Shown one piece after another: positions 52,886 to 63,990 of a stretch of DNA of 64,000 nucleotides. The DNA comes from Brevibacillus humidisoli (GTDB taxonomy: Bacteria > Bacillota > Bacilli > Brevibacillales > Brevibacillaceae). Location: NCBI RefSeq assembly GCF_020923435.1, contig NZ_CP087263.1, positions 3,615,970 to 3,679,969 of the forward strand, written 5' to 3'. Below the pieces are notes generated by a model that saw nothing but the letters and a program-made list of their open reading frames with translations, ran no database searches and was not told the DNA's origin. The position numbers were made by a program, and so were the translations under genes. Each line of letters opens with the position of its first letter. The stretch's first letter is position 1.

Positions 52886-53968
52886 TTATCCCAATGCATC
52901 TGCCGAACCCAACCGCTCCAATACGGCGCTGCCCACTTGTTGTGTGGAGGCGTGTCCTCCCATGTCAGGAGTGAGCGAATGTCCGTCCACCAGTACTTGT
53001 TCGACGGAACGGAGTACTTGCCGACCCCACTCTTCATGCCCCAGGAAATCAAGCAGTTGGCTGGCTGACCAAATCGCTGCCAGTGGATTGGCGATCCCTT
53101 TGCCAGCAATATCGGGAGCCGATCCGTGGATCGGTTCAAACATGGACGGATAGGTGCGCTCCGGGTTGATGTTGGCGCCCGCCGCCAGCCCCAGTCCGCC
53201 CGCAATCGCTGCTCCCAGGTCAGTCAGGATATCGCCAAACAGATTGGAGGTCACGACCACCTCAAATCGCTCCGGCTGTTTCACAAAAAACATGCTGGCC
53301 GCATCGACGAGATAAGAATAGGTCTGTACGTCAGGATACTCTGCCCCTATTTCGTCAAACAGCTGATCCCAGAATACCATCGAATACTGCAGGGCGTTCC
53401 CTTTGCTGATGCTGGTCAATGTTTTTCCCGTCTGTCTGGCCACCTCGTAGGCGTAGCGGATGATCCGTTCCGTACCTTTACGCGAAAACACACCTGTCTG
53501 CAAGACAACCTCTTCTGGCTTGCCCTTAAACAGCCAATCGCCCGCTCCTGCGTATTCACCTTCGCTGTTTTCCCGGATCACCAGCATGTCTACCTGCTCC
53601 TGTGTTACATCCTTGAGCGGGCATGGCGCGCCTTGCAGCAGTTTGATCGGACGCAGGTTGACGTATTGGTCAAAGCCTTTTCGTATTTTCAAGAGCAGGC
53701 CCCATAGAGAGAGGTGGTCTGGCACCCCCGGATAACCGACAGCTCCCAGGTAGATGGCATCAAATGCCTGCAGCTGCTCCAATCCATCGTCATCCATCAT
53801 CTTCCCGTGTTTGACGTAATACTCGCATCCCCAAGGAAAATAGGCGAACTCGAACTCAAATCTGCCGTCCAGTTCCGCCGTTTTTTGCAGTACGCGGATT
53901 CCCTCCGCGATCACCTCCGGACCGATCCCATCGCCCGCAATGACAGCGATCTTGTAACGTTTGCGCAA
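52886..53968 (-). CDS. Tartrate/D-malate-type beta-decarboxylating dehydrogenase
   Basis: This 360-residue enzyme of the isocitrate/isopropylmalate dehydrogenase family shows GDGIGPEVIAEGIRVLQ, GAVGYPGVPDHLSLWGLLLK, the substrate region NLRPIKLL, IRENSEGEYAGAG and DILTDLGAAIAGGLGLA. The DHLSLWG loop is the mark of tartrate dehydrogenase/D-malate dehydrogenase rather than LeuB. Products would be oxaloglycolate, glycerate or pyruvate plus CO2. TTG 53968 follows AAGGAGGAGCGGCT; GTG 53992 lacks spacing. Last gene of the 53-58.6 kb operon. Confidence 0.88.
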   Translation of the reverse strand: MRKRYKIAVIAGDGIGPEVIAEGIRVLQKTAELDGRFEFEFAYFPWGCEYYVKHGKMMDDDGLEQLQAFDAIYLGAVGYPGVPDHLSLWGLLLKIRKGFDQYVNLRPIKLLQGAPCPLKDVTQEQVDMLVIRENSEGEYAGAGDWLFKGKPEEVVLQTGVFSRKGTERIIRYAYEVARQTGKTLTSISKGNALQYSMVFWDQLFDEIGAEYPDVQTYSYLVDAASMFFVKQPERFEVVVTSNLFGDILTDLGAAIAGGLGLAAGANINPERTYPSMFEPIHGSAPDIAGKGIANPLAAIWSASQLLDFLGHEEWGRQVLRSVEQVLVDGHSLTPDMGGHASTQQVGSAVLERLGSADALG

Positions 53969-53991
53969 AAGCCGCTCCTCCTTTTTCTCCA

Positions 53992-55206
53992 CTAGTACTG
54001 GTTTACTGGCAACAAATGACGATACGCCGGCAGACCGTTGATCGTCGGAATGGTTACTTCTCCTTGAATCAATGGAAGCACATAGTCAATAAATGCCTCC
54101 GTCATCGTACAGTTCTGAGCATCATACCAAGTGGTTGGCACTACTTTTTCCCGGCTGGCCACAGCCTCCAAAGGTATAGATCCGTAAACAACATCATACG
54201 CTGTCCCACCGCAGCGTTCAATGGTAACCATGGTGCCGGACAGCCCCTCCTCCGCGTGTTCCACCGCCTGTTTGCCCACCCGGTAGGCTTCTTCGGCGTC
54301 CACTTTCGAACAGAGCGCAATGCTGCTCCGCTGCCAGACGCTTGGCAATACGTAGCGGGCTGTCAGTTTGGTACGCTCCTCAATAACCTGTGTCAGATAG
54401 GAAGATACTCCCCCCAAGCGCGGTCGCCCCAACGGATCAAGCTTTGCATGCTCATCGCCTACCAGTCTGCCCTGTTCATCGCGGATCCCTTCCGATACGA
54501 CGACAAGACAGTAACCGTACTGGCTATGGGTCTCTATCACCTTGGCCAAAAACTGTTCGATGGAAAAAGCGGACTCGGGGATGTAGATGAGCAAGGGGAT
54601 GTCGGAGCTTACCTGTTGGACCAGCGCACAGGCGGCAGCGAGCCAGCCCGTGTTCCGCCCCATAGCTTCTACGATGGTCACACGATTGCTCTTGGCCAGG
54701 CTTTTCACATCCATCTCGATGTCGAGAATACAGGTTGCAAGAAATTTTGCCGCGCTGCCAAAACCCGGCGAATGATCGGTGTTGAGCAGATCGTTGTCAA
54801 TTGACTTCGGCACGCCGATGACAGCCAATGGGTAGCCACGCCGTTTAGCTTCCTGATCGATGAGGCTGGCTGCTTTCATCGAGCCGTTGCCGCCGATGTA
54901 AAAAAAGTAGCGAATCTCCCGGCTGACGATGTAATCAACGATGCGCTCCAGATCGTGTGCGGTCAGCTTGTAACGCCAGGTGCCAAGGGCGGCACCCGGC
55001 GTATTCCTCACCTGCAGCAGTTTGTCGTGGGAAAGCTCGTCGAGATGAATGTATTCGTTGTGGAGCAGTCCGTATATGCCGTTGATTCCCCCGTAGATAC
55101 GCTCAATCTTTTGCGATTGGAGCGCTCTCTCCACGATACCGATCAACGATTGATTGATCACGGCGGTCGGTCCGCCCGATTGGGCAATTAAGCAATTCCC
55201 CTTCAT
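53992..55206 (-). CDS. Phosphofructokinase-family kinase
   Basis: This 404-residue PFK-A superfamily protein begins MKGNCLIAQSGGPTAVINQS. The phosphodonor site mixes types: YIGGNGSMK carries the small residue of ATP enzymes, whereas GVPKSIDNDL has the Lys of PPi-dependent enzymes, and Asn replaces the usual Asp of GGDGS. The catalytic MGRNTGWLAAA is present. ATG 55206 is chosen from spacing to AGGTGAAGG. It could act on fructose 6-phosphate from transketolase flux or on another ketose. It lies between the decarboxylating dehydrogenase and the ALDH. Confidence 0.82.
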   Translation of the reverse strand: MKGNCLIAQSGGPTAVINQSLIGIVERALQSQKIERIYGGINGIYGLLHNEYIHLDELSHDKLLQVRNTPGAALGTWRYKLTAHDLERIVDYIVSREIRYFFYIGGNGSMKAASLIDQEAKRRGYPLAVIGVPKSIDNDLLNTDHSPGFGSAAKFLATCILDIEMDVKSLAKSNRVTIVEAMGRNTGWLAAACALVQQVSSDIPLLIYIPESAFSIEQFLAKVIETHSQYGYCLVVVSEGIRDEQGRLVGDEHAKLDPLGRPRLGGVSSYLTQVIEERTKLTARYVLPSVWQRSSIALCSKVDAEEAYRVGKQAVEHAEEGLSGTMVTIERCGGTAYDVVYGSIPLEAVASREKVVPTTWYDAQNCTMTEAFIDYVLPLIQGEVTIPTINGLPAYRHLLPVNQY

Positions 55207-55221
55207 CGCCTTCACCTGTAG

Positions 55222-56658
55222 CTACTCTTCCAGATTGACCACGACCGTGACCGTCTCCAGCATCTCCTCGATCGCATAAGCGGGGCCCTCTCTGCCAATC
55301 CCGCTTTCTTTTACTCCGCCGTAGGGCATCTGATCCGCACGGAAGCAACACGTGTCGTTTACGATCACCCCGCCAACCTCCAGTTGGTACGGGATTTTAT
55401 AAGACAAGTTTAAGGATTTGGTGTAAATCCCTGCCTGCAGTCCGTATTTCGAATCATTGACGAGTTGGATGGCTTCCTCGATTGTTTGGTACGAGGCCAC
55501 CGTCACGACCGGTGCAAATACCTCTTCGTCCACTACCTTCATCCCTTTGCCTGCATTGACGATCACAGTCGGGTAAAACAGGCTGCCTTCGCGCTTCCCG
55601 CCCGTCACGATCTGCGCTCCGGCCGCAGCCGATTCCTGTACCCAGGATTCAATCCGCTTCGCTTCTTTTTCACTAATCATCGGACCTACAGTTGTTTCCG
55701 GATCAAGCGGATCCCCCACCTTGAGTTGGGCTACATGGGCGAGAAAGGCATCCATAAACTGTGCCTCTACTGCTTGATGGACATAGATGCGCTGAACAGA
55801 GATACAGATTTGCCCCGCGTGGGCAAAGGCCATTTTTGCCAGTTTGGCTGCGGCCTTCTCTACATCGGCATCTTCGTGAACAATAGTCGCCGAGTTTGAT
55901 CCCAGTTCGAGTGTCACCTTGCGCAAGCCAACGGTTTCTTTGATGTGCTTGCCGACCTCCGGTGAGCCGGTAAACGTGTAGTATGCGATGCGCGGATCTT
56001 TTAGCAGCTGCTCGCCAACGGTTGATCCACCGCCTACCACGCAGTGCACGTAGCCTTTGGGCACCCCCGCTTGCTCCAGCAGCCGGCACAGCTTTAGGGC
56101 AACCAAGGCTGTATCGGATGCCGGCTTGATGATGATCGGGTTTCCTGCCGCCAGCGCCGGCGCCACTTTGTGCGTCACCAGATTGAGCGGAAAGTTAAAC
56201 GGAGTGATCGCTGCAACCACGCCAACCGGCTTTTTTACGGTGTAAATAAAGCGTGACTCCAGGCCTGGCGCTGCTTGACTGGGAATCAGCTCACCTTTGA
56301 TTTTCTTCGCTTCCTCAGCCGCCATCAGGAACGTATTGGCGGAACGCCTCACCTCTACACGTGCGTCGGAGATCGGTTTGCCCCCTTCCCTTGCGATGGT
56401 TTCAGCAAAATCGTCTTCGTTTTCTTTTAACAATTGGGATAGTTTGGCCAAAACCGTGTAGCGGTATTCGAGCGGAAACGGGACTTGTTTGAAGGCGTAT
56501 TCCGCCGAGCTGACCGCCTGATCTACTTCTTTAACCCCTGCTTTGCAGACATGGGCAACCACGTCACCCGAGTATTTGTTGTAGATGGTATGTGTCTCGT
56601 CTGTTTCTATCCATTCGCCATCAATGAACAGCTTCTGTTTTTCAATGGACTTCTCCAT
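55222..56658 (-). CDS. Aldehyde dehydrogenase of the TRAP/transketolase cluster
   Basis: This 478-residue ALDH has catalytic Glu in VTLELGSNSATIV, Cys in AHAGQICISVQRIY and TFTGSPEVG. It is a close paralogue of the gab-region ALDH (37396-38823). The group includes lactaldehyde, sulfolactaldehyde and semialdehyde dehydrogenases. Beside a split transketolase and a tartrate-type dehydrogenase, tartrate semialdehyde is an attractive substrate (inference). ATG 56658 follows GGGGAGGAGAAAAA. Confidence 0.88.
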   Translation of the reverse strand: MEKSIEKQKLFIDGEWIETDETHTIYNKYSGDVVAHVCKAGVKEVDQAVSSAEYAFKQVPFPLEYRYTVLAKLSQLLKENEDDFAETIAREGGKPISDARVEVRRSANTFLMAAEEAKKIKGELIPSQAAPGLESRFIYTVKKPVGVVAAITPFNFPLNLVTHKVAPALAAGNPIIIKPASDTALVALKLCRLLEQAGVPKGYVHCVVGGGSTVGEQLLKDPRIAYYTFTGSPEVGKHIKETVGLRKVTLELGSNSATIVHEDADVEKAAAKLAKMAFAHAGQICISVQRIYVHQAVEAQFMDAFLAHVAQLKVGDPLDPETTVGPMISEKEAKRIESWVQESAAAGAQIVTGGKREGSLFYPTVIVNAGKGMKVVDEEVFAPVVTVASYQTIEEAIQLVNDSKYGLQAGIYTKSLNLSYKIPYQLEVGGVIVNDTCCFRADQMPYGGVKESGIGREGPAYAIEEMLETVTVVVNLEE

Positions 56659-56727
56659 TTTTTCTCCTCCCCAAACCATGTATGACTGTTGTCTGGTGTT
56701 AGACCGGCCTTTGGTCAATCCAGACGA

Positions 56728-57690
56728 CTATTTCCCCGCTTTGATCCGGAGTACTTCCTTTGCCCGCTTCACGATGTGTCCAGTCGAGATTTCGTACTTT
56801 TGCAGCAATGCATCGTTAGGCCCTGATTCCGAATTCTTGTCGTTTACGCCGACTCGCAGCATGGGTACCGGGCAGTGTTCTACCAAGACTTCCGCAACTG
56901 CGCTGCCGAGACCACCGTAGATACTGTGCTCCTCGCAAGTTACGAGTGCTCCCGTCTGCTTGGCGGCATCGATAATCGCATCACGGTCAATCGGCTTGAT
57001 CGAAGGCATGTGCAGCACAGCGGCGGAGATCCCTTCTTGTTCCAGCAGATCAGCCGCTTCCCATGCGCGCACTGTCTGCGTACCAGTGCCAATCAGCGTA
57101 ACATCGCTGCCCTGCTTCAATTCAACAGCCTTGCCTAATGTAAATGAATAATCCTGGGGCATCACAACCGGTAGTGGATCGCGTGCCAGCCGGATATATA
57201 CCGGCCCTGTATGCTCGTGGGCAAATCGCATCACATGCTGCACTTCGGACGCATCTGCCGGAGCCAGTACGACCATGTTGGCCAAACTGCGCATGATCGC
57301 GATATCTTCTAACGCTTGATGGGTTTTGCCTGTGCAGCCCGTCAACAGTCCGCTGTAGGCACCGATCAGTTTCACATCTAGTTTGGGCTGGGCCACCGTC
57401 ACCTGAATCTGATCAAGCGAGCGCTTGGCGATAAAAGCAGCGAACGAACAAGCCCAAGGCTGCAGTCCGACCGTAGCCAGCCCGGCGGCTGCGCCGATCA
57501 TGTTTTGCTCAGCGATGCCCATTTGCAAAAACTTGGACGCATTTTTCTCTGCCACCAGGTTCAGTTTCGTCGAGTTGGCCAGATCGCCGTCCAGGGCGTA
57601 TACGCGAGGATCGCTGATCGACAACTGCAGCAGTGTTTCACCAAATACATCCCGCATCGAGACCAAATTGCCGTTCTGTATCGTCTGCAT
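56728..57690 (-). CDS. Transketolase C-terminal subunit
   Basis: This 320-residue half carries the pyrimidine-binding and C-terminal domains. FLQMGIAEQNMIGAAAGLAT holds the Glu that activates thiamine diphosphate, and ALEDIAIMRSLANMVVLAPA follows. It pairs with the N-terminal half encoded 4 bp upstream. Split transketolases occur in dedicated catabolic clusters (apulose-4-phosphate, sulfofructose) as well as in archaea. ATG start; a separate housekeeping transketolase is presumed elsewhere. Confidence 0.92.
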   Translation of the reverse strand: MQTIQNGNLVSMRDVFGETLLQLSISDPRVYALDGDLANSTKLNLVAEKNASKFLQMGIAEQNMIGAAAGLATVGLQPWACSFAAFIAKRSLDQIQVTVAQPKLDVKLIGAYSGLLTGCTGKTHQALEDIAIMRSLANMVVLAPADASEVQHVMRFAHEHTGPVYIRLARDPLPVVMPQDYSFTLGKAVELKQGSDVTLIGTGTQTVRAWEAADLLEQEGISAAVLHMPSIKPIDRDAIIDAAKQTGALVTCEEHSIYGGLGSAVAEVLVEHCPVPMLRVGVNDKNSESGPNDALLQKYEISTGHIVKRAKEVLRIKAGK

Positions 57691-57693
57691 CTC

Positions 57694-58548
57694 TTACACC
57701 TCCACACCCAGTTCTTGCAGTGCGCTGTTCAGCTCATCATCGGTAGGTACCCTTGAATGCCACAGGTAGGCATTTTCCATAAAGCTGACACCCTTCCCCT
57801 TCACCGTGTGAGCGATCAGCACCGTGGGTTTTCCCTTTGTTGCTTTTGCCTGGCTGCAAGCAGTGAGAATCTGTCCAAAGTGATGACCGTCAATCTCCAT
57901 CACATTCCAGCCAAACGCTTCCCATTTCTTTTCCGGAGAGGGTACCGGTACGGCTCGTTCGCGTCCGTCGCTTCCTTCCCAGCCGTACTGCTGCAGCTTG
58001 TTGTAGTCCATGATCACGACCAAGTTGTCCAACCCGTATCGAACGGCAGCGTCGGCTGCTTCCCACACCTGCCCTTCCTGTGACTCCCCGTCGCCAATCA
58101 TGCAATAGGTGGTAAACGTCTTACCCGTCAGTTTAGCCCCCAGCGCCATGCCAACTGCAGTGGAGATCCCCTGACCCAGCGATCCTGTCGACATATCCAA
58201 TCCCGGCAGGATGTTCATGTCCGGATGGGCTTGCAGCCGAGAATCGATTGCATCAAACGTGTAGAGCTCTTCCAACGGATAGTAACCCTTTTGCGCGAGC
58301 ACCGCGTACAAGGCAATAGCCGAATGTCCCTTTGACAGCACGAAACGATCCCGATCTTCCCACTGCGGCTCTTCCGGTCTGACATTCATCACCTCGTAGT
58401 AGAGACTGATCAACAGATCAGTTGCAGACAGCGGCCCGCCGATATGACCTGCTCCGGCATGATGTACCGTTTTGATAATCAACGCTCTCGTTTCCGCTGC
58501 CTTTTGCTGCAAGAATGAAATCTTTTCCTGATCCAGTACGGTTTCCAT
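57694..58548 (-). CDS. Transketolase N-terminal subunit
   Basis: This 284-residue half carries the pyrophosphate-binding domain. The thiamine-diphosphate motif is MIGDGESQEGQVWEAADAA ending in DYNKLQQYG. Substrate-side histidines occur in KTVHHAGAGHIGGPLSATDL and LSKGHSAIALYAVL. ATG 58548 is chosen because AAAGGAGG stands 6 bp before it; ATG 58554 has no spacing. It is the first gene after the double operator at 58631-58707. Confidence 0.93.
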   Translation of the reverse strand: METVLDQEKISFLQQKAAETRALIIKTVHHAGAGHIGGPLSATDLLISLYYEVMNVRPEEPQWEDRDRFVLSKGHSAIALYAVLAQKGYYPLEELYTFDAIDSRLQAHPDMNILPGLDMSTGSLGQGISTAVGMALGAKLTGKTFTTYCMIGDGESQEGQVWEAADAAVRYGLDNLVVIMDYNKLQQYGWEGSDGRERAVPVPSPEKKWEAFGWNVMEIDGHHFGQILTACSQAKATKGKPTVLIAHTVKGKGVSFMENAYLWHSRVPTDDELNSALQELGVEV

Positions 58549-58630
58549 CTGCATCCTCCTTTTCACTTCTCTTCTCTTTCGTGCCCACATCTCACAACGG
58601 CTGTGTGAATGAATCCAGTTGACTGCACAC

Positions 58631-58650
58631 TAGGTTAAGCGCTTAACCTA
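58631..58650. promoter_or_regulatory. LacI-type operator O1 with overlapping promoter
   Basis: TAGGTTAAGCGCTTAACCTA is a perfect 20-bp palindrome. On the minus strand a TATAAT (58659-58654) lies just before it, so the start point would fall inside the operator and a bound repressor would block the tktN promoter. The centre is the AAGC|GCTT of LacI-family sites. Confidence 0.82.
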
Positions 58651-58691
58651 ACAATTATAAAAAACAGCGACTATTCCATATTTTTAATATA

Positions 58692-58707
58692 GGGTAATCG
58701 CTTAACC
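58692..58707. promoter_or_regulatory. LacI-type operator O2 with second promoter
   Basis: GGGTAATCGCTTAACC matches O1 except in one arm, and its centre is 59 bp from that of O1. Another minus-strand TATAAT lies just before it at 58720-58715. So tktN seems to have two promoters, each followed by an operator. The rest of 58708-58864 shows nothing further. Confidence 0.7.
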
Positions 58708-58864
58708 AAACCCTATTATAATATACATGTTTTCAGATGCAAAGACTCTTTCTGCTTTTCCCCGTTCACAATCCGGGAAGTCGGCGGCAGAAGCGCTTTG
58801 CTTTTGCCTGTGCTTGTGCCTCTACCGCCAACTGAATCACCCGGAAAGAAAATGTCCCGAATCA

Positions 58865-60142
58865 CTAGTCCTTTACTAATGACGGTATCCACGTGGATAA
58901 TTCCGGTACAAAAGAAATAATCAACACGTCAACGAAGAGTAGGATAATTAAAGGAACCGCTGCTTTGGCGACACGCCCGATGGACAACTTGGAGAGCTGC
59001 GACACCACAAACAAGTCGATCCCAACCGGTGGAGTCACCAATCCGATAGCCAGGTTGACGACCATGATTGTTCCGAAATGGACTGGGTCAATTCCAAGGT
59101 TGACGGCAGTGCTCAACAACAGCGGAACAAAAATCAGAATGGCCGCTCCCCCGTCCAGAAACATCCCGGCCAATAAAAGCAGGACGTTCATCATGATCAA
59201 GAACACGTATTTATTGGTGACCAATTCCGAGATAAATCCGTACACCATGTCCGGCACACCGGTAATATTGATAAAGAAACCAAACAAACCGGCTGCGCCG
59301 ATGACAATCATGATGACAGAGCTGGCAATTGCCGAGTCCCTCAAGGTCTCGACCAGTTTCTGTACGCTAATCTCCCGGTAGACGAGAAATCCGATCACAA
59401 ACGAGTAAACCACTGCAATAACGGATGCCTCGGTGGGCGTAAATATGCCTGTGTAGATTCCGCCCAGCACGATCACTGGCATCAACAGAGCCAGAATCGC
59501 TTCTTTGAACGCTTTTCCAACATCGCGAATGCTTTGACGCTCCACGCCATGATAGCCGCGTCGCTTGGAGATGATATAGGCGCTAATCAGCAGGGAAACC
59601 GTGATCAGCAATCCCGGCAAGATCCCCGCCAGAAACATATCGCCAATCGACACTTCCGCAGCAACACCATATAAGATCATGGGGATGCTGGGGGGAATAA
59701 TCACGCCTAGCGCACCCGAGATCGCCTGATTCGAGGCCGCATACTCGATGTGGTATCCCCTGGCCACCATCGCCGGTATCAGGATGGAACCAATCGCCGC
59801 TGTCGTCGCTGCTCCTGATCCGGAGATCGCGGCAAAAAACATGGACGTGATAATCGCTACCATGGCCAAACCACCCGTGCGATGTCCCACCAGCGCGCTT
59901 GCAAAGTTAACCAGTCGCTGCGAAAGACCGCCCGCGGTCATCAGGTTGCCAGCGAGAATAAAAAAAGGAATCGCCATCAGCGGAAAGGAATTCATCGCGA
60001 TAAAGATGCGCTGCGGGATAATCTCCAGCGGCAGTGTGTCGTGAAACCACACACCGACGATCGTCGCCAAGCTCAGCGAAGAGGCAATCGGGACGCTTAG
60101 GAAGAGGAGGACAGCCAGCGAGATAAAAAAGAGAGCAAGCAT
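58865..60142 (-). CDS. dctM: TRAP transporter large permease DctM
   Basis: This 425-residue protein with about twelve spans is the ion-coupled transport subunit. Typical stretches are SFPLMAIPFFILAGNLMTAG, AISGSGAATTAAIGSILIPA, ASNQAISGALGVIIPPSIPM and IVVNLAIGLVTPPVGIDLFV. It joins with DctQ (4 bp upstream) and the binding protein DctP. GTG or ATG start at 60142 in the line GCTTGCTCTC. Last gene of the upstream half-operon; operators follow it. Confidence 0.93.
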   Translation of the reverse strand: MLALFFISLAVLLFLSVPIASSLSLATIVGVWFHDTLPLEIIPQRIFIAMNSFPLMAIPFFILAGNLMTAGGLSQRLVNFASALVGHRTGGLAMVAIITSMFFAAISGSGAATTAAIGSILIPAMVARGYHIEYAASNQAISGALGVIIPPSIPMILYGVAAEVSIGDMFLAGILPGLLITVSLLISAYIISKRRGYHGVERQSIRDVGKAFKEAILALLMPVIVLGGIYTGIFTPTEASVIAVVYSFVIGFLVYREISVQKLVETLRDSAIASSVIMIVIGAAGLFGFFINITGVPDMVYGFISELVTNKYVFLIMMNVLLLLAGMFLDGGAAILIFVPLLLSTAVNLGIDPVHFGTIMVVNLAIGLVTPPVGIDLFVVSQLSKLSIGRVAKAAVPLIILLFVDVLIISFVPELSTWIPSLVKD

Positions 60143-60146
60143 GCTT

Positions 60147-60638
60147 TTACTCCTCCGTTCCTATGAACTCTTCCAGGATGCAGGAGAGAGAGTTCAGCAA
60201 GAGTAACAGTCCGCCGATCGGCAGTGACAAATAGATCCAAAACATGGAGAGCCCCGTTCCCGGAGCCTCTTGCATCGCAAAACTTTCTGCCAGTTTCCAG
60301 CCGTAGATCATCATAATCACGTAAAATACAAGGGAAATCAGATGGGTTGACACTTTGATCCACTTTTTTACCCTCGCAGGGGCTACCTCTGGAACGATTT
60401 CAACAGCCAGCAGGCTCCCTTTGCGCAGTGCCAGCGAAGAGCCGATCAAGACCATGAAAATCATTAAAAACCGAGCCAGTTCCTCAGACCAGGCCAGAGA
60501 TGACCCGAAGGCGTAACGGGCCATGACCTGCCAAAAAATCAGAATGGACATGACCGCAATGATCAGCGCCAAGCCCCAACCGAAGATTTTATTTACACGA
60601 TCCACTAGGTGAATATACGACTGTAGGACTCCTCTCAT
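60147..60638 (-). CDS. dctQ: TRAP transporter small permease DctQ
   Basis: This 163-residue protein has four spans (IFGWGLALIIAVMSILIFWQ, LARFLMIFMVLIGSSLAL, THLISLVFYVIMMIYGWKL, WIYLSLPIGGLLLLLNSL). It links DctP and DctM. SSLAWSEELARFLMIF is the usual DctQ signature. ATG follows AGGAGGGTAACG. A strong hairpin separates it from dctP. Confidence 0.92.
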   Translation of the reverse strand: MRGVLQSYIHLVDRVNKIFGWGLALIIAVMSILIFWQVMARYAFGSSLAWSEELARFLMIFMVLIGSSLALRKGSLLAVEIVPEVAPARVKKWIKVSTHLISLVFYVIMMIYGWKLAESFAMQEAPGTGLSMFWIYLSLPIGGLLLLLNSLSCILEEFIGTEE

Positions 60639-60660
60639 CGTTACCCTCCTATCTCGGAAG

Positions 60661-60689
60661 CGGGTGGCAATGAACCATTACCACCCGCT
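60661..60689 (-). other. dctP-dctQ intergenic hairpin
   Basis: GCGGGTGG (60661-60668) pairs with CCACCCGC (60682-60689), extended inside by AATG/CATT. There is no U run, so it probably protects the dctP message, giving more binding protein than permease. Confidence 0.6.
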
Positions 60690-60696
60690 CCGCTAT

Positions 60697-61737
60697 TTAA
60701 TATTTGAAATTCCGAACCTTGTCGATCAGTTCCTGGCCGATTTGCGGTGCCCATTTTTCATAGACGGCGTCTACCTTTGCCTTGAAGGACTCTTTGTCTG
60801 GCTGCGTAATCGTCAAACCCTGCTCTTCCAGGAACGCTTTTGCTTCGTCAATCTTGTCCTGGTTCGCCTGACGTCCCTTTGGTACCGCGTATTCAGCAGC
60901 CTTTAGCACCGCTTCTTGCTGCTCAGGGGTGAGCGACTCAAACAGCGCCTTGCTGATCGCAATCGGAGCTGGTGCATATCGGTCATCCAGCAGAGCTACA
61001 CTGGATTGCACTTCGTATATTTTCGAAGATTGGATTGTCGCTGGAGAATTGGAGTGTCCATCGATTACCCCTTGCTGGAGTGCCGTAAACACTTCCGGCC
61101 AAGCCATCGGTGTCGGGTCTGCTCCATACGCTTTCCAACTGTCAATCTGTACTTCGTTCTCTTGGACGCGGATCTTCATTCCCTTGACATCGTCTACCGT
61201 TTGAATCGGTTTGTTGGAAGTGGTGGCAACAAATCCGTTTTCCACCCATCCCAGAATCTTTACGTTGGCTGCCTGTTCAAACTTTTGGGCCAATTCGTCG
61301 CCAATCTCTCCGTCCAGAACAGCAAATGCATGTTCTCTGCTCTCAAACAAGAATGGCAAATCGAACATGTTAAACTCTTTTACCCAGTTCCCCATCGGAC
61401 CGGCCGAAATAATCCCCATATCGAGGGAATTGAGACCCATCATCTCAAATACTTCTCGTTCTCCGCCAAACGCGTTGTTATAGTAGATTTTTACCGACAT
61501 CTTGCCATCCGTTACACGTTCCAATTCTTCCTTGAACGCCTTGGCGGTGATGTCAAACTTTGCGCCTTCCGGTTCCGGAATGCTCAGGTCTAGAACGAGG
61601 GGAGATTCAGACCCCGTGTTCGTCTCCCCTCCGCTCGCTTCCGACGGAGCGGACGTGCCAGACTGGCCGCACGCCGCGATGGTAAAGGACAAGATAGCTG
61701 CCAACAGAACGGGTAACCACTTTTTATGTTTTTGCAC
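60697..61737 (-). CDS. dctP: TRAP solute-binding lipoprotein DctP
   Basis: This 346-residue binding protein has a lipoprotein signal (PVLLAAILSFTIAAC, lipid Cys at about residue 23) and a Ser/Gly/Thr-rich linker. The DctP fold shows YNNAFGGEREVFEMMGLNSL, GWVENGFVATTSNKPIQT and GMKIRVQENEVQID, with the Arg that normally binds a carboxylate. A monocarboxylic sugar acid is therefore a likely ligand, though polyol binders exist. ATG follows AAAGGGGTATGAATC. First of dctPQM. Confidence 0.92.
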   Translation of the reverse strand: MQKHKKWLPVLLAAILSFTIAACGQSGTSAPSEASGGETNTGSESPLVLDLSIPEPEGAKFDITAKAFKEELERVTDGKMSVKIYYNNAFGGEREVFEMMGLNSLDMGIISAGPMGNWVKEFNMFDLPFLFESREHAFAVLDGEIGDELAQKFEQAANVKILGWVENGFVATTSNKPIQTVDDVKGMKIRVQENEVQIDSWKAYGADPTPMAWPEVFTALQQGVIDGHSNSPATIQSSKIYEVQSSVALLDDRYAPAPIAISKALFESLTPEQQEAVLKAAEYAVPKGRQANQDKIDEAKAFLEEQGLTITQPDKESFKAKVDAVYEKWAPQIGQELIDKVRNFKY

Positions 61738-61773
61738 GATTCATACCCCTTTTCTTTTTTCATTGATGTTTGA

Positions 61774-62880
61774 TTACAAATGTGGATATACGATCACTTT
61801 CATGCTGCCGCTTTTGTTCGTCCTGGCCCGCTCCAGTGCCGCACCCGTCTGTACCAGCGGATACTGATCCGTAAGTAAAACGCTTACATCATTCTCACTG
61901 GATGCCATCAATTCCACCCCTAAGGGATAGGTGTTGGTATAGCGATAGGTGCTGTATAGGTCAATCTCTCTCTGAAGCATCAGCGTGAGATTGACCGGCA
62001 CTCTATCTTCCGCAGGGAAACCGATCAGCACCAGTTTTCCTCCGCGTTTTGCCGCCTCTACTCCACTGTCAATCGCTCTCGCGTTGCCCGACGTATCAAT
62101 TACCATGTCGACACCCAGGTTCTGGGTAAGCCTGCTCACTTCTTCCACCACGTTCTTTTCTCCCGCTTGAATCGTGGCAGTGGCCCCCAGCTTCTCTGCC
62201 AATCCCAGACGAAACGGCTCTACGTCACTGACGATGATCTGGCGGGCGCCATATGCTTTGGCAGCGATAATCGCGGTCAATCCGACAGGGCCCATCCCCA
62301 TGATCAGCACCGATGACCCAGGTTGCAACCCCGCCCGCTTTACGGCATGAATCCCCACCGAGAGAGGTTCAATCAAGGTCGCGCATTCAAATGAGAGGTG
62401 ATCGGGGATCGGAAACAGCAGATCTTCCGGATGACAGATATACTCCGCAAATGCCCCGTCGACCGGCGGTGAGGAGAGAAAGGCCACATGCGGGCACAAG
62501 TTGTACCTTCCCTCTTTACACCATTGGCACTTGCCGCAGGTGATGCCTGGCTCCACCGCCACTCTGTCCCCTAGTTGAAACCTGGTCACCTCACTGCCGA
62601 TTGCGACCACAATACCAGCACATTCGTGTCCCTGAACCAGCGGTTTCTCCACTTTGCGGGCACCAATTCTGCCGTGCTCATAGTAGTGCACATCTGATCC
62701 GCAGACCCCGACGGCCATCACTTTCACCAGTACATCATGCGGTCCAGGGTGAGGGACAAGTCTCTCTTCAATCGTTACCGTCAGAGGTTTCTGCAGGACA
62801 GCCACCTTCATCTTGTGAGGCAAATCCGGCAGCCTTCTAAGCGTATCTTCTTGTATGGCCGACACTGGTTTCTTCACCAC
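61774..62880 (-). CDS. Zinc-dependent MDR dehydrogenase, sorbitol/idonate type
   Basis: This 368-residue medium-chain dehydrogenase has catalytic-zinc residues in GVCGSDVHYYEHG and VQGHECAG, structural-zinc cysteines in CGKCQWCKEGRYNLC, the dinucleotide loop GMGPVGL and VSDVEPFRLGLAEKLGA. It is closest in look to sorbitol/xylitol and L-idonate dehydrogenases. GTG 62880 has only GATAGG before it; ATG 62811 (MKVAVLQKP) is possible. It likely oxidises a polyol or aldonate to a keto sugar. Confidence 0.88.
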   Translation of the reverse strand: MVKKPVSAIQEDTLRRLPDLPHKMKVAVLQKPLTVTIEERLVPHPGPHDVLVKVMAVGVCGSDVHYYEHGRIGARKVEKPLVQGHECAGIVVAIGSEVTRFQLGDRVAVEPGITCGKCQWCKEGRYNLCPHVAFLSSPPVDGAFAEYICHPEDLLFPIPDHLSFECATLIEPLSVGIHAVKRAGLQPGSSVLIMGMGPVGLTAIIAAKAYGARQIIVSDVEPFRLGLAEKLGATATIQAGEKNVVEEVSRLTQNLGVDMVIDTSGNARAIDSGVEAAKRGGKLVLIGFPAEDRVPVNLTLMLQREIDLYSTYRYTNTYPLGVELMASSENDVSVLLTDQYPLVQTGAALERARTNKSGSMKVIVYPHL

Positions 62881-62897
62881 CCTATCAAAATCTCTCT

Positions 62898-63935
62898 CTA
62901 ATCGTAATCGTAGTAGAGCAGCACTTTCCCGCCCTGTTTTTGCTCACAGATCTCAAAGGCTTTTTCCCAAGAGCTTAGCGGCAACGTGTGGGTAATGAGC
63001 GGTTTGAGGTTGAGTTTTCTCTGCTCCCAGATGCTCATCACCTTTTCCCAGGACGACATCGAGTGCGCCAGTGATCCGCAGAGTTCAATCTGCTTGTACA
63101 GAACGAGATCGAAATCAATTGTAATCTCCCGCCCCACAATGCCCACCTGCATATATTTCCCTCTAGGTTTAAGCGCTTTCAAACAACTGGCGATGGAGGC
63201 GCCTGCTCCTGCACATTCTACCGCGGCGTCAACTCCTCGACCGTTTGTTTCCCGCTTCAGCACATCATCCAGGTTCTCTGTCAGCACATCGACAACGACA
63301 TCTGCCCCCATCTGTTCCGCCAATCGCAACCTTCCTTTGTCAGCTGTGGTACCAGCGACAATCACCTTGCAGCCGCGGGCAATCAGCAGTGACAGACAGA
63401 GCAAGCCGATCGGTCCCGGACCGGACAACAGCACCTGATCCCCCACATGAAGCGAGGTCAGCTCCTCGATTGGCTGCACGGCACATGCGAGCGGTTCTGA
63501 CAGTGCAGCTTCTTCCAGCGTGAGGAAATCGGGAATCTTGCGGACCATATCTTCTCTGACCACGGCATACTTGGTAAAGCTTCCGTGTACTCCGTGCCCC
63601 ATGCCCCTTCTGCTGGGACAAAACATGTAGAATCCCTGCCGACAGTAGTCGCATTCCCCGCATGTGACAGCTGTTGAGGGAAGTACCGTTACTCTGTCTC
63701 CCTCTCTCACATGTCGGACGCCTCGGCCAACCTCGGCCACAATTCCGGAAAACTCATGTCCCATGATAACGGGCGGATAGCTTTTAAACGTATCGTGATA
63801 GATGTGTAGATCGGTACCACATATACCGGAAAATTTCACTTCGACTTTAACCTGCCCATCTTCACAAGATGGTTCAGGCAAATCGATGATCTGGACATTC
63901 CCAAAGCCCGGTCTTATTTTTGCAAGTGCTTTCAA
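62898..63935 (-). CDS. Zinc-dependent MDR dehydrogenase
   Basis: This 345-residue paralogue of the next gene has FSGICGTDLHIYHD, VIMGHEFSGIVAEVG, structural-zinc CGECDYCRQGFYMFC and the loop GPGPIGLLCL. Family members include sorbitol, threonine 3- and sugar-acid 5-dehydrogenases. TTG 63935 follows AAGGGGGGACCTGA. It is the first gene of the block, 40 bp downstream of a LacI-type operator. Two such enzymes could interconvert epimeric aldonates through a shared 5-keto acid. Confidence 0.88.
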   Translation of the reverse strand: MKALAKIRPGFGNVQIIDLPEPSCEDGQVKVEVKFSGICGTDLHIYHDTFKSYPPVIMGHEFSGIVAEVGRGVRHVREGDRVTVLPSTAVTCGECDYCRQGFYMFCPSRRGMGHGVHGSFTKYAVVREDMVRKIPDFLTLEEAALSEPLACAVQPIEELTSLHVGDQVLLSGPGPIGLLCLSLLIARGCKVIVAGTTADKGRLRLAEQMGADVVVDVLTENLDDVLKRETNGRGVDAAVECAGAGASIASCLKALKPRGKYMQVGIVGREITIDFDLVLYKQIELCGSLAHSMSSWEKVMSIWEQRKLNLKPLITHTLPLSSWEKAFEICEQKQGGKVLLYYDYD

Positions 63936-63974
63936 TCAGGTCCCCCCTTACCATCGTGAAAAATATCTCGAGAA

Positions 63975-63990
63975 AGGTAAGCGCTTAACT
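63975..63990. promoter_or_regulatory. LacI-type operator O3
   Basis: AGGTAAGCGCTTAACT shares the GGTAAGCGCTTAAC core of O1 and O2. It lies 40 bp before the first dehydrogenase gene, tying both halves of the block to one repressor, whose gene probably lies beyond the window. Confidence 0.72.

Follow-up and report, generated by a model that had tools for sequence, protein, structure and literature searches.

A Gene Cluster with a Split Transketolase in Brevibacillus humidisoli and a Possible New Route of Inositol and Sugar-Acid Breakdown

Proposed Function of the Cluster

We analysed a 64,000-nucleotide stretch of the genome of the soil-type bacterium Brevibacillus humidisoli (contig NZ_CP087263.1, positions 3,615,970 to 3,679,969; hereafter, the window), which carries near its end ten genes encoding two zinc-dependent medium-chain dehydrogenases/reductases (MDR1 and MDR2), a tripartite ATP-independent periplasmic (TRAP) transporter, a transketolase split into N- and C-terminal halves (TKN and TKC), an aldehyde dehydrogenase (ALDH), a phosphofructokinase (PFK), and a beta-decarboxylating dehydrogenase of the TTC family. 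Close relatives of the core genes adjoin inositol-breakdown genes in other species, suggesting a route for the catabolism of inositol and sugar acids that has not been described before. Judging from sequence, we give about an even chance to a LacI-regulated catabolic operon in which a sugar acid is imported by the TRAP transporter, oxidized at C5, and cleaved by transketolase, with the resulting C4 semialdehyde being converted to D-malate and then to pyruvate. In other Bacilli, this core also seems to be used for the breakdown of inositol, which we consider a more important result than the route in the window itself.

The genes, their operators, their co-occurrence, the exchange of the core between uptake types, and clade membership were read directly from the genomes; from these we infer which reactions take place, what is transported, and that the C4 acid is D-malate and not tartrate, as follows. 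The TRAP transporter would import a sugar acid, which MDR2 (with MDR1 acting in some step) would convert to a 5-keto-hexonate whose ketose configuration is D-threo, as accepted by transketolase. The split transketolase would move the CH2OH-CO unit to glyceraldehyde 3-phosphate (GAP), yielding xylulose 5-phosphate and freeing a C4 semialdehyde (malic or tartrate semialdehyde); oxidation of the semialdehyde by ALDH would produce a C4 diacid, D-malate being the likeliest, from which the TTC-family dehydrogenase would make pyruvate and CO2. PFK, with a fructose-bisphosphate aldolase (FBA) encoded inside or outside the cluster, would handle C2-derived ketose phosphates, i.e., fructose 6-phosphate (F6P) or sedoheptulose 7-phosphate (S7P). 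In the inositol-type (type A) clusters of other species, IolG-IolE-IolD-IolB would make 2-deoxy-5-keto-D-gluconate, and transketolase would replace IolC/IolJ/IolA.

Gene Content and Operators

Family identities were obtained from NCBIfam and Pfam scans of the cluster proteins, with curated cut-offs where given below. All ten genes are open frames arranged in tandem on the minus strand (52886–63935), and are transcribed in the order MDR1, MDR2, DctP, DctQ, DctM, TKN, TKC, ALDH, PFK, TTC-family dehydrogenase, with a 274-base gap between DctM and TKN; the window ends just 5′ of MDR1. The open reading frames (ORFs) and family scans confirm the gene list of a first-pass annotation of the window (two zinc MDRs, TRAP transporter, split transketolase, ALDH, PFK-family kinase, and TTC-type dehydrogenase on one strand). 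The features are:

52886–53992, minus strand: TTC-family beta-decarboxylating dehydrogenase (tartrate/D-malate dehydrogenase family); TIGR02089, 497.4 bits (cut-off 470.4)
53992–55215, minus strand: phosphofructokinase, pyrophosphate-dependent (PPi-PFK, PRK14072) subfamily; NF010675, 483 bits (cut-off 273)
55222–56718, minus strand: ALDH; Pfam Aldedh
56728–57690, minus strand: transketolase C-terminal half, TKC (pyrimidine-binding and C domains); Pfam Transket_pyr and Transketolase_C
57694–58590, minus strand: transketolase N-terminal half, TKN (thiamine diphosphate (ThDP)-binding domain); Pfam Transketolase_N
58591–58864, minus strand: promoter gap internal to the cluster, 5′ of the transketolase genes, with two LacI-type operators
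58865–60142, minus strand: TRAP large permease DctM; TIGR00786, 445.8 bits, above cut-off
60147–60638, minus strand: TRAP small permease DctQ; Pfam DctQ
60697–61737, minus strand: TRAP solute-binding protein DctP, a proposed sugar-acid binder; NF037995, 241 bits
61774–62880, minus strand: MDR2, zinc MDR dehydrogenase of the sorbitol/ketose-reductase type; closest solved structures 1e3j and 3qe3/1pl6
62898–63935, minus strand: MDR1, threonine-dehydrogenase-like zinc MDR dehydrogenase; closest solved structures 2dfv/2d8a/3gfb
63975–63990, minus strand: LacI-type operator 5′ of the first gene (MDR1); three-mismatch match to GGTTAAGCGCTTAACC

At up to three mismatches, GGTTAAGCGCTTAACC has three sites in the window, as compared to 0.19 expected by shuffling (none of 100 shuffles gave three). 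Besides the site at 63975, these are an exact copy (58633–58648) and a two-mismatch copy (58692–58707) in the DctM-TKN gap. This bears out the shared operators of the earlier description; sites are present before MDR1 and before TKN. A further copy, GGTGAAGCGCTTACC, is located just past the window end, and a promoter-like TTTGCA-17-TATAAT was found in the gap 5′ of TKN (L009 8713–8685). A scan of the whole genome (a single 4.9 Mb contig) gave close matches at this cluster only and weaker ones at background level, which makes the operon look like a regulon of its own. A LacI-family regulator gene is present just outside the window (64215–65327 in window numbering), beside MDR1, and its product is likely the regulator of the cluster.

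Beyond the LacI gene is a fructoselysine (frl)-like operon (L010 2709–9699, judged by eye from ORFs), with genes for a GntR regulator, a PfkB kinase, an ABC transporter, a SIS-domain deglycase, and a TIM-barrel epimerase. The first-pass annotation had named a linked isomerase or sulfoquinovosidase past the window as evidence for a different pathway; neither was seen in this by-eye reading of the ORFs, in which the adjoining genes resemble a separate frl operon.

Distribution and Two Cluster Types

With an alignment of TKC as the query, a scan of 84,980 genomes identified 34 loci; 23 of these were at >60% identity, all of them in Bacilli. Gene maps showed mainly two types, type A with inositol genes and type B with MDR1, MDR2, and a transporter. 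Type B, the type of the window, is present in nine other genomes (L031, L032, L035, L037, L041, L044, L045, L048, and L049), and its transporter is of the TRAP type except in L035, which has an ABC transporter. Type A is present in at least 13 genomes (L019, L025, L028, L029, L030, L033, L036, L038, L042, L043, L046, L061, and, as a second cluster, L078/L079 in the genome of L041). The genes and operators are found together in other genomes (co-occurrence of the genes had been proposed earlier as a check), and since the gene set is kept as a unit in nine other species, it does not represent a chance neighbourhood. Within the order to which the organism belongs, PFK and transketolase co-occur in the same four genomes.

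The arrangement LacI-PFK-[X]-TKN-TKC-ALDH recurs in several species, with X being either IolG-IolD-IolB-IolE-IolG or MDR1-MDR2-DctPQM. Both types are present in Siminovitchia thermophila, one cluster apiece, and their transketolases are near-sisters. Identity is 53–68% for MDR1 across all type B clusters and 61–74% for TKC in both types, and the ALDH of the window is 68–76% identical to the ALDHs in type A clusters. A third arrangement was found in Brevibacillus fluminis (L026 11209–19314), where the transketolase pair occurs with a short-chain dehydrogenase/reductase (SDR), a TIM-barrel protein, and a branched-chain-type ABC transporter; an SDR, PFK, and LacI group is located elsewhere in this species (L020 8716–12036).

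Inositol-Type Clusters

The upstream enzymes of type A clusters score above the equivalog cut-offs (in parentheses) for IolD, 983 (715); IolE, 401 (290); IolB, 371 (205); and IolG, 360 (355). In the established pathway, IolG-IolE-IolD-IolB produce 2-deoxy-5-keto-D-gluconate, and type A clusters should therefore yield this compound. No IolC-like gene was found in the window or in type A clusters, except at the edge of L033, and both a family model and a direct protein search found IolC missing from 6 of the 13 type A genomes; in other genomes (e.g., L072 and L073), an IolC is encoded in a classical operon apart from the cluster. Type A clusters carry instead the transketolase pair with a varying set of ALDH, PFK, class II FBA, and TTC-family dehydrogenase or malic enzyme, to which RpiB is added in L029 and L038. 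In Bacillus sp. FJAT-50079 (L033 and L077), a single IolD apparently supplies an IolC gene as well as the transketolase core and may mark a branch point.

We put it at slightly below an even chance that, in type A clusters, 2-deoxy-5-keto-D-gluconate is cut by the dedicated transketolase to (R)-malic semialdehyde and a C2 unit (as xylulose 5-phosphate), with D-malate and pyruvate following, in place of IolC-IolJ-IolA, and that a hexonate imported by the TRAP transporter enters the same core through the window operon. No description of inositol breakdown via transketolase was found in the open-licence literature, although a subscription-only paper could exist.

Exchange of Uptake Modules around One Core

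The two transketolase halves were joined for a maximum-likelihood tree, on which a single clade of the 10 TRAP/MDR (type B) rows was rejected (approximately unbiased (AU) test, p = 6e-8) and well-supported branches force at least three changes of type. Type labels clustered on this tree no more strongly than shuffled labels, and types A and B were likewise intermixed in the TDH, ALDH, LacI, and PFK trees. Just 5′ of TKN, most clusters, whether of type A or type B, carry the same operator, which none of nine control loci has. Because the uptake part is swapped around a constant core with the same regulator family, these patterns are most simply explained if both uptake parts supply the same or nearly the same intermediate.

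Proposed Uptake and Oxidation in the Window Operon

A structure model of DctP built with more sequences (predicted local distance difference test (pLDDT) score of 95) replaced an earlier one (pLDDT 57) and matches TRAP solute-binding proteins, including the sugar-acid binder DctPAm (7bbr; Z 38.9); the best Foldseek matches are 4pdh, 4p9k, and 4pdd. R190 is invariant across the DctP set, so the carboxylate-type arginine noted earlier holds as far as can be judged from sequence. We propose that DctP binds a sugar acid and that the TRAP transporter is of the sugar-acid type. MDR2 is closest among solved structures to ketose reductase (1e3j) and sorbitol dehydrogenase (3qe3/1pl6), enzymes whose products are D-threo 2-ketoses, the shape that transketolase needs; relatives of MDR2 in 399 genomes of the class were found mostly in apparent polyol-dehydrogenase loci, contexts uninformative on the substrate. 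The variant cluster L035 has, in addition, a gene for an SDR that most resembles gluconate 5-dehydrogenase, and L049 has one for an acid-sugar-dehydratase-like protein of the enolase superfamily. The likeness of DctP, the type of MDR2, and these two additions together suggest that the substrate in the window is likely a hexonate oxidized at C5, as the first-pass annotation had held. If this hexonate lacks a C2 hydroxyl, the products would be D-malate and pyruvate; if it has one, the C4 acid would be L-tartrate or meso-tartrate.

Identity of the C4 Acid

The closest solved relative of the TTC-family dehydrogenase is P. putida TDH (3flk). The clade of the window enzyme is common to inositol-type, TRAP-type, and carnitine-monooxygenase-linked loci, with identical active-site motifs, and the carnitine-linked dehydrogenases are 70–79% identical to it. 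In L063, L065, and L068, the dehydrogenase gene adjoins one for a CntA-like Rieske oxygenase, whose best solved relative is the carnitine monooxygenase CntA (230 bits; next unrelated entry, 119); these loci probably serve breakdown of carnitine or a similar betaine in Bacilli. A sigma-54 activator is also present in all three, and an ALDH in L063 and L068. Carnitine monooxygenase frees malic semialdehyde. In the Acinetobacter baumannii carnitine pathway, an ALDH forms D-malate enantiospecifically from malic semialdehyde and a dehydrogenase then makes pyruvate; neither L-tartrate nor meso-tartrate was used by this D-malate dehydrogenase at a detectable level (PMC11353897). Because its clade is common to the carnitine-linked enzymes, the window TTC-family enzyme is suggested to act on D-malate rather than tartrate. 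The ALDH of Domibacillus type B (TRAP) clusters also belongs to the carnitine-linked clade (66–71% identical).

A stereochemical derivation from known structures leads to the same acid independently of the dehydrogenase, whose family handles D-malate. As a ketose, 2-deoxy-5-keto-D-gluconate has the D-threo configuration at C3–C4 (as in xylulose and fructose); its cleavage by transketolase would leave (R)-3-hydroxy-4-oxobutanoate ((R)-malic semialdehyde), and oxidation of this would give D-malate.

The first-pass annotation had led the route through tartrate. In the version weighed here, an aldonate (L-idonate or D-gluconate) would be converted via 5-keto-D-gluconate to xylulose 5-phosphate and tartrate semialdehyde, then to L-(+)-tartrate, and finally to glycerate or hydroxypyruvate. 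Hexonates are commoner in nature than 2-deoxy-hexonates, and the chemistry is that of the D-malate route with one more hydroxyl. The TTC-family enzyme scores above the TIGR02089 cut-off, and both the sorbitol/ketose-reductase-like MDR2 and the gluconate-5-dehydrogenase-like SDR in L035 fit oxidation of an aldonate. Furthermore, formation of tartrate semialdehyde from 5-keto-gluconate by transketolase has been proposed for grape (credited to Salusjarvi et al. 2004; PMC7970118), and E. coli DmlA takes both L-tartrate and D-malate (cited in PMC11353897). However, the core sits with inositol genes, and loci of the inositol and carnitine types, for which malate would be the C4 acid, share the TTC-family clade; the D-malate enzyme of A. 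baumannii does not use L- or meso-tartrate (PMC11353897). In addition, neither a glycerate kinase nor a hydroxypyruvate reductase was seen beside any TRAP-type cluster in a partial check. The outline of the earlier route (catabolic cleavage of a keto-acid, oxidation of the C4 product, and decarboxylation) is thus retained, while its tartrate end is less supported; tartrate is possible as the C4 end product but less likely than D-malate, and we regard the complete tartrate route as rather unlikely.

A uronate variant would use exactly two dehydrogenases, with MDR1 reducing an imported hexuronate and MDR2 oxidizing L-gulonate to D-fructuronate, which also has the D-threo configuration; transketolase would then give erythruronate, ALDH meso-tartrate, and the TTC-family enzyme D-glycerate and CO2. 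Structural neighbours of DctP include 4p1l, 4p3l, 4xfe, and 4x8r, which we take to be uronate binders. The clade arguments against tartrate apply equally here, and no uronate isomerase or 2-keto-3-deoxygluconate (KDG) gene is located nearby, making this variant improbable as compared to the D-malate route.

Three further loci contain related genes. At 1.55 Mb in the same genome (L011 7804–12591), a second TTC-family dehydrogenase (57% identical) occurs with an ALDH, an SDR, and a sigma-54 activator; it falls outside the transketolase/carnitine clade and may be a true tartrate enzyme. At 462–474 kb (L012 1756–14359), a four-carbon-acid cluster recognized by eye contains genes for a sigma-54 activator, a DUF1537-type kinase, a TRAP transporter, a LarA-like protein, an ALDH, an Fe-dependent alcohol dehydrogenase (Fe-ADH), and PdxA2-like and GyaR-like dehydrogenases. 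In L062 (9256–18893), a TTC-family dehydrogenase 81% identical to that of the window is found with a ribose-type ABC transporter, an ALDH, a LamB/YcsF-like protein, and a biotin carboxylase; this locus would represent another use of the same ALDH and TTC-family pair.

Transketolase and Kinase

The two adjacent transketolase genes span the ThDP and pyrimidine/C domains, and the GDG (ThDP), AGHxGGP, and GHSA motifs of TKN are conserved. Split transketolases act in sulfoquinovose breakdown (SqwGH; PMC9594981). Others act in breakdown of apulose phosphate. Both cases would fit a transketolase serving a ketose (apulose-, sulfofructose-, or pentose-type) rather than an acid, with the ALDH/TTC-family pair having a separate substrate. 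We give this little credence, as the window cluster has no sugar isomerase, mutarotase, sulfoquinovosidase, or sulfonate gene, the ALDH directly adjoins transketolase in most clusters of both types, and the solute-binding protein is of the sugar-acid type.

The PFK motifs GGNGS/PKSIDND are conserved in nearly the whole set. The closest solved structures, 3hno and 3k2q, both have GGGDS, so that the nucleotide site in nearly all clusters is mixed, with GGNGS in place of GGGDS and a PK-type second motif, PPi being a candidate phosphoryl donor. PFK is more likely an F6P or S7P kinase handling transketolase products; some clusters have FBA or RpiB alongside, as would be expected if C2 units are disposed of as F6P/S7P. 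The first-pass annotation had also allowed for a kinase acting on transketolase products, by returning them to glycolysis. An essential sedoheptulose-bisphosphate route compensating for a missing transaldolase was ruled out, as transaldolase is present in all 22 genomes.

Several observations weigh against the proposed D-malate route. Some residues in the sugar-phosphate pocket of the split transketolase differ from those of a full-length transketolase (SADL to DGDL and HDSI to YSGL), making its donor and acceptor uncertain. With transaldolase in all of the genomes, pentose-phosphate flow does not depend on the PFK/FBA route, which would be a helper rather than a necessity. The window cluster lacks any inositol gene (neither the ORF list nor the family scan of the cluster proteins revealed IolG, IolE, IolD, or IolB), and no natural acid is obvious that two MDRs would convert to 2-deoxy-5-keto-gluconate. 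The window ALDH belongs to a second clade, just 46–50% identical to the carnitine-linked ALDHs, so the carnitine pointer to D-malate rests mainly on the dehydrogenase. Finally, malic enzymes normally use L-malate, and the malic enzyme found in four type A clusters therefore suggests malate while conflicting with D-malate stereochemistry; we counted it as support and tension alike and dropped it as proof of malate.

Comparison with Known Systems

Type A relatives share IolG, IolE, IolD, and IolB (above equivalog cut-offs) with the classical inositol pathway of B. subtilis and Salmonella (IolG-E-D-B-C-J-A), but replace IolC, IolJ, and IolA by the split transketolase, a different ALDH, a TTC-family dehydrogenase or malic enzyme, PFK, and FBA; the window cluster has no iol genes. 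If our proposal is correct, inositol breakdown, for which the textbook route runs via IolC/IolJ/IolA to acetyl-CoA, has an unrecognized alternative in Bacilli leading to pyruvate and pentose phosphate, a family of split transketolases gains a function, and the window operon represents a sugar-acid version of the same core. It would also explain some genomes with iolB, iolD, and iolE but without iolC, which a survey of 193,757 genomes attributed to missing sequence, assembly errors, or frameshifts; that survey held iolC essential and did not mention transketolase (PMC9430895).

The Sulfo-TK pathway of sulfoquinovose breakdown (SqwGH) likewise has a dedicated split transketolase, which takes C2 units from an acidic C6 ketose and passes them on to GAP (PMC9594981). 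However, no SqvD/SqvB, SqwI, or sulfonate enzymes were found among the ten genes by family scans or, by eye, among the outside neighbours; here, dehydrogenases would make the ketose, and a C4 diacid would be decarboxylated. The L-carnitine pathway of A. baumannii (MSA-DH and D-malate dehydrogenase) resembles the proposed route in having a semialdehyde dehydrogenase followed by a beta-decarboxylating D-malate enzyme, and the dehydrogenase clade of the window is also found beside CntA-like genes in Bacilli; the semialdehyde comes from carnitine C-N cleavage in that pathway, whereas the proposed source here is a keto-acid cut by transketolase. In the tartrate biosynthesis proposal for grape and Gluconobacter, transketolase cuts a 5-keto-hexonate to a C4 semialdehyde, on which an ALDH then acts (PMC7970118); that proposal is biosynthetic, with its genes unconfirmed, while the cluster described here would be a catabolic bacterial operon, probably ending in D-malate.

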